Positions 60,540-63,186 of a DNA stretch of 64,000 nt are shown here, piece by piece (positions within the stretch are counted from its first letter, which is position 1; the number at the start of each line of letters is the position of its first letter). The DNA comes from Actinomycetota bacterium (GTDB lineage: Bacteria; Actinomycetota; Rubrobacteria; Rubrobacterales; Rubrobacteraceae). The translations under genes and the position numbers were made by a program. The notes under the pieces are model-generated. The model was not told the DNA's origin and did no database searches. It saw only the letters and a list, made by a program, of their open reading frames with translations. The stretch covers positions 1 to 64,000 of the forward strand of contig CADDYV010000014.1 of assembly GCA_902810695.1 (NCBI GenBank), written 5' to 3'.

Positions 60540-60612
60540 GCGGACGTAGCTCAGTTGGTAGAGCGCCAGCTTCCCAAGCTGGAGGTCGCGGGTTCGAAAC
60601 CCGTCGTCCGCT
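60540..60612 (+). tRNA. tRNA-Gly (CCC)
   Basis: A 73-base tRNA: acceptor GCGGACG/CGTCCGC with discriminator T, D-arm GCTCAGTTGGTAGAGC, anticodon stem CCAGC/GCTGG with loop TTCCCAA (anticodon CCC, reading GGG), T-arm CGGGTTCGAAACCCG. CCA is not encoded. A TTTTT run follows at 60614-60618. Its 3' flank carries a copy of the sdhB end. Confidence 0.95.
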
Positions 60613-60616
60613 CTTT

Positions 60617-60647
60617 TTATCCTCCGTTCCGGGAGCCATTTCTGCGG
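60617..60647 (-). repeat. duplicated 3' end of sdhB
   Basis: Read on the minus strand this encodes RRNGSRNGG and a TAA stop. The true sdhB end encodes [13 protein letters not shown] and TAG (62350-62392). The 18 bases at 60630-60647 match 62375-62392 at 17 positions, and the last 10 coding bases are identical. It is a remnant one RNGS unit shorter, lying right after tRNA-Gly. Confidence 0.7.
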
Positions 60648-60968: not shown

Positions 60969-62156
60969 ATGCGGAAGAGAAGTCGCAGGGAATTTCTGGC
61001 GCTCACTGGCCTGGTTGGGGCGGGCGCAGCGCTGTACGTGCGTCCTCGCTCGGCGCAAGCGGCAACTCATAATGGCTACCCTGATGCCTTGACCCATAAG
61101 ATTATGAGCGAAATAAAGACATTCCATTCCTGGGCTTCTGGACACGGCATCTTCATTGGAGAAGTCGGGATACCTACGAACCTCGGTTCTCATAGAAGTA
61201 CCTTCTACGACCAAGCACGGTGGGCGGCGCTCGCCAGAAACTACTACATTCCCTACGCCAACGCCAACAGAATTCCTGTAACGTGGCAAGAGTGCTCAGA
61301 GCGATATTACCGCATGAAAATCGGCGGCTATTACGCCTCGATATACCTCTGCCCCGGAGATGACATCCACAAGGTGGTGGACCGTCCTGGATATGCGGCC
61401 TCAGTGATCGAGGCTTCTGCTGGAAGGGCGGCGCTCGGCATCAAATTCTCCGAGGGCCAGTGGTTCGATGAGAGTGTGCAAAACAACCAAAACCCCGGAA
61501 CCTATGACGTGGACTACTGGTATGCGACAGTCGGCTCGAACCCTATCTCGCCCAACACGAACATGAACAGCTTCCAGTACCTTGCAAGCCGGGGTATCCG
61601 CCACGTGAGAATAGGATGCCGCTGGGAGCGGATACAGAGGACGCTTGGCGGGCCGTTAGATAAAACTGAGCTTGGATATCTCAAGGAGGCGGTTGCCAAC
61701 GCCAACGCTGCAGGGCTTCATGTTATCCTGGACCTTCACAACTTCGGCGGCTACGTAACTCCTACTGGAAGGAAGCCCATAGGCTCCACCGGCTGTACGG
61801 TATCACGATTTGTGGACGTCTGGAGGCGACTCTCTGCCAACTTTGCAGGGCAGGTCTTTGCTTACGACCTGATGAACGAGCCGTATAACCACGGCGGTGT
61901 GGTAGGTGGAGCCCGCGGCTGGCAGAGCTATAGCCAGCAGGTGGTAAACGCCATAAGAGCTCGCGGGGACAGCACCCTCATCATGGTCCCAACCTACTCT
62001 AACGTCAAGAATCTGCTGGAGTCCCACACCAGCCCCTGGATAAAGCACGGCGGGTCCATACGCTACACCGCCCACCACTACTGGGATGGCCATGGCGGAC
62101 ACTTCGACTATTCATACTCCTACTATAACCAGCTGGCAGCTAAGCGAGGATACTAG
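60969..62156 (+). CDS. Tat-exported GH5-like glycoside hydrolase with permuted order
   Basis: A 395-residue exported protein; the twin-arginine motif SRREFLALTG is at residues 6-15 and the signal ends near AQA. Residues 45-125 (GIFIGEVGIPTN with Glu65, DQARWAALARNY, IPVTWQECSERYY) look like barrel strands 7-8 of GH5 cellulases, including the nucleophile region. From about 185 (NSFQYLASRGIRHVRIGCRWERIQ, HVILDLHNFGGY, YDLMNEPYNH with Glu304, RYTAHHYWD) come strands 1-6 and the acid/base. The protein stops after the strand-6 region, where strands 7-8 normally follow. ATG 60969 has AGGAAG seven bases upstream. GC is below that of its neighbours. Confidence 0.72.
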   Translation: MRKRSRREFLALTGLVGAGAALYVRPRSAQAATHNGYPDALTHKIMSEIKTFHSWASGHGIFIGEVGIPTNLGSHRSTFYDQARWAALARNYYIPYANANRIPVTWQECSERYYRMKIGGYYASIYLCPGDDIHKVVDRPGYAASVIEASAGRAALGIKFSEGQWFDESVQNNQNPGTYDVDYWYATVGSNPISPNTNMNSFQYLASRGIRHVRIGCRWERIQRTLGGPLDKTELGYLKEAVANANAAGLHVILDLHNFGGYVTPTGRKPIGSTGCTVSRFVDVWRRLSANFAGQVFAYDLMNEPYNHGGVVGGARGWQSYSQQVVNAIRARGDSTLIMVPTYSNVKNLLESHTSPWIKHGGSIRYTAHHYWDGHGGHFDYSYSYYNQLAAKRGY

Positions 62157-62349
62157 GATGTGAGGATGAAAGAGATCAGATCGTCCACAGAACAAGGTCT
62201 CGGCCTGCTTGCTGCTCCTGTCCGTGTATCGGGGCACTTGCGGGAACTACCTTCGTTTCGCGGTTAGACACGGGTTTTGGAGACAACCCCAAGAGCGGTG
62301 CCGCTATTTGCAGGACTTCTTGCTTGAGTAAGAGTTATCTTCCCAAGCT

Positions 62350-63186
62350 CTATCCTCCGTTGCGGCTACCGTTTCGGGAGCCGTTTCTGCGGCCCCGGAT
62401 CTTGCGCATCAGCCACTTGGCCGGGTCGTAGTACTCGGCGGCGACCCGCTCCTTCAACGGAATAATTGAGTTGTCGGTGATGTGGATGCCGACCGGACAG
62501 ACCTCGGTGCAGCACTTGGTGATGTTACAGTAACCGATACCGTTGTCTTCCTTGAGGTCATGCAGCCTGTCCGCCTCGTCCATCGGGTGCATCTCGAGCC
62601 ACTGGTTCCTGACGAAGAAGCGCGGGCCGGCGAACTCGGCGTGCTTGTGGTGCGTCCTCAGCACGTGGCAGACGTCCTGGCACATGAAGCACTCGATGCA
62701 CTTCTTAGGCTCGTAGAGGCGCTCCACGTCCTCCTCGTACATCGTGAACGGCGCCTTCTCGCTCGTGGTGAAAGGCGTGATGCCCTTCGAGACCTCGTAG
62801 TTCCAGGAGACATCCGAGACGAGATCCTTTATTACCGGGAAGGCCCGCATGGGACCGACGTGGATCTCCTCGTCGCCGTACTCTTCGATGCGCGTCTTGC
62901 ACATCAACCTGGGGACGCCGTTGATCTCGGCGCTACACGAGCCGCAGTGGGCCGCCTTGCAGTTCCAGCGCACCGCCAGGTCGTTCGCCTGGTGCGCCTG
63001 GATGCGCAGAACCGCATCCAGCACGACCATCCCCTCGACGAGCGGGGTTTCGTACTCGACCTCCTCACCGCCTTCGGCGTCGCCGCGGAAGATCTTGAGC
63101 TTCGCCGTTCTGCCGGTTCCGCCGAGATCCTCCTCGCCAACTGGCGCGTGCGCCTTGGAAGTAACGTTGTGGTTCTCTTCTGTCAT
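62350..63186 (-). CDS. sdhB: succinate dehydrogenase/fumarate reductase iron-sulfur subunit
   Basis: A 278-residue subunit. The N-terminal ferredoxin domain has [17 protein letters not shown] and a later LMCKT for the 2Fe-2S cluster; [13 protein letters not shown] and, further on, [14 protein letters not shown] ligate the 4Fe-4S and 3Fe-4S clusters. It carries electrons from SdhA to the membrane quinone site. The C terminus is an odd RNGS repeat ([13 protein letters not shown]), partly duplicated beside tRNA-Gly. ATG overlaps the sdhA stop (ATGA). No membrane-anchor subunit is in the window. Confidence 0.93.

Follow-up and report, generated by a model that had tools for sequence, protein, structure and literature searches.

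The 395-residue protein encoded at positions 60969..62156 (+) of the window, the whole 64,000-nucleotide stretch of actinomycetote DNA analysed here, is in our judgement a TIM-barrel glycoside hydrolase of family GH5 (subfamily 5-like) that has undergone natural circular permutation, with a probability of roughly 0.92. The coding sequence starts with ATG and homologues were found. It opens with a twin-arginine RR-x-F-L signal of the Tat type (MRKRSRREFLALTG...), which occupies residues 1-31 (RKRSRREFLALTG...; 60969..61061, +) and gave sub-threshold matches to Pfam TAT_signal (E 0.014) and TIGR01409 (E 0.031). The RR-x-F motif is also present in relatives, and a scan of the protein against NCBIfam gave no match above cut-off. 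Residues 38-146 (61080..61406, +) run α6-β7-α7-β8-α8 and correspond by profile and model to the part that lies C-terminally in ordinary GH5 domains, with matches to canonical GH5_5 chain residues ~226-308. Residues 157-395 (61437..62153, +) correspond to the normal N-terminal part, β1-β6 plus a loop helix, as judged from Pfam, PDB matches and the model. Between them lies the putative new linker (approximately residues 147-156; 61407..61436, +), which is gappy in A1 and modelled with modest confidence. The strand order is 7-8-1-2-3-4-5-6, as opposed to the usual β1 to β8 of GH5.

The reordering had been proposed from sequence motifs in the original prediction, whose reading-frame coordinates and residue numbers were right. 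The strand 7-8-like motifs IFIGEVGIP (containing Glu65), DQARW and PVTWQE all precede DLMNEP (Glu304) and AHHYWD, and the protein does end soon after the latter, with about 22 residues remaining past AHHYWD (368-373). In A1, an alignment and profile of ten relatives sharing 35-50% identity with the window protein, the nucleophile Glu65 and the His-x-Tyr motif are invariant and the Asn-Glu pair nearly so, in the same order across separate genomes. The Glu65 codon (61161..61163, +) lies at the end of β7, and that of the acid/base Glu304, after Asn at the end of β4 (LMNEP; 61878..61880, +), aligns to the MNEP of solved GH5 enzymes; both glutamates are invariant in A1. The GH5 H-x-Y motif of β6 is supplied by His369-His370-Tyr371 (62073..62081, +; A1 residue columns).

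Pfam family PF00150 (curated cut-off 23.5 bits) matches residues 197-378 of the window protein only, covering profile positions 22-204 of 272 (E 8.6e-28, 98 bits). When residues 32-149 were placed behind residues 150-395, the match became a single stretch covering positions 22-266 of 272, and the score rose from 98 to 104.9 bits. The N-terminal segment alone, searched as single sequences, had no Pfam match.

Comparison with solved structures placed the two segments in the positions that the original prediction had expected, the N-terminal one at the ends of GH5 chains and the remainder at their beginnings. The family profile matched canonical GH5_5-like PDB chains as two pieces in swapped order. 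On PsCel5A (4lx4), A1 profile positions 168-404 correspond to chain residues 12-218 and positions 63-90 to residues 235-262; on XacCel5A, positions 170-402 correspond to residues 25-234 and positions 59-128 to residues 245-308. A5, a profile built from just the N-terminal piece, was searched against 177,635 PDB sequences and gave 18 matches at E up to 1, all of them to the C-terminal region (chain residues ~219-308) of GH5 endoglucanases, which argues that the likeness of this segment is more than chance. The best of these was RBcel1 (E 7e-7), whose Glu245 aligns to the invariant Glu of the family. In RBcel1, Glu245 is the catalytic nucleophile, Glu135 the acid/base and Tyr201 a highly conserved tyrosine (PMC8900817). 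The best PDB matches include RBcel1 and PsCel5A (both assigned to GH5_5 in PMC8900817) as well as XacCel5A. Against the PDB the N-terminal piece was detected with profiles only; with phmmer, rotation of the single sequence brought no gain (90.6 vs 91.5 bits).

The original prediction had left two origins open, a natural circular permutation, which is well supported by our data, and the joining of a GH5 tail to a GH5 that had lost its own, which is disfavoured. According to the latter explanation, the tail of one GH5 gene was attached by chance to a different, tail-less GH5, giving a hybrid barrel or two half-domains; the variable junction linker and the decayed N- or C-part fragments that occur in the family (L084, L086, L008) would fit such an event. 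Against this, the same order is conserved at 35-50% identity, the structure prediction gives one domain, and the closest canonical-order relatives, L021 and L028, which both lie in phage tail-protein contexts, are the closest canonical relatives of both pieces. The ends that are new in the permuted chain are adjacent in these two sequences: the segment that closes the permuted protein ends at 292 in L021 and 783 in L028, and the segment that opens it starts at 295 and 786, respectively. With only 2 residues between the pieces in each case, a fusion of unrelated halves is disfavoured. For the C-part, L021 and L028 rank top; for the N-part they take the second and third ranks, the first going to L024, which matches the window protein there over 24 residues only. 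Moreover, when 14 canonical sequences are compared with the permuted family, N-part similarity correlates with C-part similarity (Spearman 0.78, p 0.001). The shared closest relatives and the correlated similarities make it more likely that one gene was permuted than that two were fused; this matched affinity of the two pieces largely refutes the fusion, which we regard as very unlikely.

Permutation of a single gene would have produced the chain α6-β7-α7-β8-α8-linker-β1...β6, the old N- and C-termini being joined by a short linker of ~10-20 residues and the new termini being placed in the β6-α6 connection. By analogy with GH70 (PMC4919382), the route may have been permutation by duplication, in which a gene duplication would have been followed by loss of both outer ends. 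Some viral-contig proteins (L029, L035 and L043) contain more than one GH5 copy per chain, indicating that the duplicated precursor state exists, in more distant relatives. In a tree of 37 rows, all 16 permuted rows group with L008, L021 and L028 (96/89), with two order changes, and canonical L021 groups with permuted L022 and L025 (97/95). Since both orders thus occur in one well-supported clade of viral contigs, it is conceivable, though rather less than an even chance, that the barrel order changed more than once in this GH5 lineage, being either permuted twice or permuted and then reverted, with phages or integrative elements as carriers between bacteria. A single clade of all permuted rows was not rejected by the AU test (p-AU 0.17), and for this reason we do not claim a second permutation event.

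As the original prediction anticipated for a permuted barrel, the AlphaFold2 model of the window protein is a single domain containing all eight strands (pTM 0.81, mean pLDDT 74). The input alignment was a restricted set of sequences, and loci retrieved by genome search did not enter the structure predictions. The elements, named from our reading of the DSSP string and given in model numbering (model residue + 31 = protein residue number), follow the order α6, β7 (30-36), α7, β8 (73-78), α8, β1 (125-129), β2 (181-187), β3 (220-226), β4 (267-269), β5 (306-310) and β6 (333-340). Closure of the barrel in the model is not independent proof, because AlphaFold has seen GH5 folds. Foldseek, which aligns strictly in sequence order, matched the window model to the best XacCel5A and PsCel5A structures over 223-230 columns (TM 0.53-0.56 normalised by target), covering about three quarters of the canonical barrel. 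As a control, the model of the canonical sister L021 (pTM 0.79) aligned to the same targets mostly over 303-316 columns with TM 0.69-0.74 (for example 307 of 314 at TMt 0.74). Partial coverage by the window model against near-complete coverage by L021 is the pattern that permutation predicts. A BFVD fold search returned partial GH5 matches only.

It might be argued that the N-terminal segment is a separate domain that folds alone or binds something, leaving an incomplete or inactive barrel. The β8-α8 loop of the model is of low confidence (pLDDT below 50), Pfam sees the β1-β6 part only, and some relatives are degenerate, L009 being without the Arg, the His and the Asn of NEP. However, the segment carries the invariant nucleophile Glu together with GH5 strand motifs, a barrel built without it would have no nucleophile, and the pTM of 0.81 refers to the whole chain. 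Taken with these points, an independently folding segment is highly improbable, and a permuted barrel remains the preferred reading.

Homologues with the same order, which the original prediction had suggested looking for, were found both in other genomes and in viral contigs. Intact permuted proteins number 12 in 9 actinomycetote genomes, the window protein included; the other carriers are G020, G026 (two), G030 (two), G032, G073 (two), G094, G115 and G337, and decayed or fragmentary copies occur in the window's own genome (G000), G032, G037 and G203. Some match was present in 66 of the 397 genomes sampled from the phylum; beyond the permuted proteins and fragments, these were weak, incomplete matches of the kind that distant canonical GH5 should give. 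We reject a class-wide trait, since strong matches were present in 6 of the 40 genomes of the class sample, one of them a C-part-only fragment. The IMG/VR contigs L020, L022 and L023 have the permuted order; L020 lies beside a portal protein and L023 beside a major head protein, so phages are among the carriers of the domain. Scanning viral sequences with A3, a mixed alignment, gave no conserved pattern. An assembly or annotation artefact, for which one might cite the fragmentation of this genome into 148 contigs, is rejected as having a negligible probability, because the same order stands in one open frame with no internal stops and recurs in many separate genomes and in viral contigs of other, independent assemblies.

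Several members of the family are unusual. In L022 the permuted GH5 domain is embedded in a 1759-aa viral-contig protein (661-5937) and flanked by many short VALSGTSSLTA-like repeats. L025, also permuted and from a viral contig, has an in-frame TAG (2785-2787) inside the β8 motif (HTT-TAG-WASG) with the frame continuing beyond it; recoding of the stop codon, splitting of the gene and an error are the candidate explanations. The permuted homologue L009 (G073:C50) has changes in the Arg and His columns and REP in place of NEP, and is probably catalytically dead or repurposed. L008 (G037:C305) keeps β1-β6 but is without a recognisable N-terminal segment or nucleophile, and is a pseudogene, truncated or mis-assembled.

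The window gene lies in a ~1.77-kb insert between a tRNA-Gly (CCC) (60540..60613, +), which forms the left border of the gene-carrying segment and is directly adjacent to sdhB in several relatives, and sdhB itself (62350-63186, -), which flanks the insert on the right. In L096, L097, L107 and L112 no more than tens of bases separate the tRNA from the end of sdhB. The right border is marked by an 11-nt sequence repeated from the tRNA-Gly anticodon arm, CTTCCCAAGCT (62339..62349, +), the other copy being at 60570-60580; the window contains 2 matches to this sequence, against 0.09 expected by chance. There is also a 24-nt direct repeat with its left copy at 60624..60647 (+) and its right copy, 92% identical, at 62369-62392 in the 3' end of sdhB. 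The GC content of the insert is 0.49-0.57, compared with ~0.61-0.65 in the flanking genes. Overall, the insert looks like the product of integration at a tRNA, with no integrase left.

The folded barrel would rebuild a normal retaining active site, with Glu65 as nucleophile, Glu304 as acid/base and Arg214, His257, Asn303, His369 and Tyr371 as supporting residues. Eight residues are strictly conserved in GH5 and define the family, namely Arg, His, Asn, Glu, His, Tyr, Glu and Trp (PMC3978015). By alignment, seven of the eight are present in the window protein (Arg214, His257, Asn303, Glu304, His369, Tyr371 and Glu65), the β8 Trp being replaced by Gln107, which indicates a GH5-derived protein with one altered site. 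Gln occupies the β8 column also in L003, L004 and L006; Trp is kept there in L005, L007, L009, L015, L016, L020 and L022, and all eight residues are found in the permuted L005, L007, L015, L016, L020 and L022. The β8 Trp of GH5 enzymes supports the sugar in subsite -1. In view of its replacement, the window subclade may have changed this subsite, perhaps for a non-cellulose substrate, and activity or specificity may differ.

The protein is likely to be a secreted retaining β-glycanase that would hydrolyse a β-linked polysaccharide outside the cell, Tat export being followed by retaining double displacement as in RBcel1. Exopolysaccharide is suggested by the genes that surround relatives. The copies in G026 and G030 lie among glycosyltransferases, a ParA-type ATPase resembling the ATPases of Wzc kinases and a Wzy_C ligase, the G026 copy additionally near a Wzz protein and a flippase-like protein. 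A sugar transferase and a methyltransferase are encoded near one of the G073 copies. In the window's own genome, a decayed second permuted GH5 is located in a locus with sugar transferase, glycosyltransferase and dTDP-rhamnose genes; this copy (L084 ~2140-2485; own contig C2 ~103640-103985) comprises the α6-β7-α7-β8 part in broken frames. It has been proposed that RBcel1 takes part in cellulose synthesis and that PsCel5A substitutes for BcsZ (PMC8900817). A role in trimming or turnover of exopolysaccharide is suggested only tentatively for the window protein, since the locus of its gene is not an exopolysaccharide locus.

GH5 is a large and well-studied cellulase family, and all GH5 structures matched here share one strand order. 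A conserved natural permutant with its nucleophile in the N-terminal quarter indicates that evolution can reorder a clan GH-A barrel while preserving the catalytic residues, and living relatives in both orders make the permutation-by-duplication route testable. It also exposes a blind spot in annotation: profiles see β1-β6 only, so that such enzymes resemble truncated cellulases. In addition, the family offers natural templates for permuted glycosidases. In the open PMC literature on GH5, cellulases and clan GH-A we came across no previous description of natural circular permutation in GH5, the natural carbohydrate-enzyme permutation that surfaced there being that of GH70; as subscription papers were outside the scope of this search, we regard this as a first report provisionally.

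Among known systems, the window protein shares both segments, the catalytic Glu pair, H-x-Y and the predicted strands with the GH5_5 endo-1,4-β-glucanases RBcel1 (4ee9) and PsCel5A (4lx4) and the close XacCel5A (4w7u) and Xac0029 (5hos). The GH5_5 enzymes, in contrast, run from β1 to past β8, whereas the window protein starts at α6 and ends after β6, and where they have the β8 Trp, the window subclade has Gln. The canonical GH5 domains of L021 and L028 are 41-43% identical over the β1-β6 part and belong to the same tree clade, but they have the normal order, are embedded in phage tail proteins and show no Tat signal. Work on sTIM11 and related designed TIM barrels has established that a circularly permuted barrel with a helix at the N-terminus is tolerated (PMC13105402), although sTIM11 is designed, not natural, and without a GH5 active site. 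A natural circular permutation of a catalytic (β/α)8 barrel is known from GH70 relative to GH13, the GH70 chain starting with helix α3 and permutation by duplication having been proposed (PMC4919382). No GH13 or GH70 family was among the Pfam matches of the window protein. GH70 resembles it as a permuted barrel in a carbohydrate-active enzyme whose chain starts at a helix, and differs from it in clan (GH-H), cut point, chemistry and domain set.
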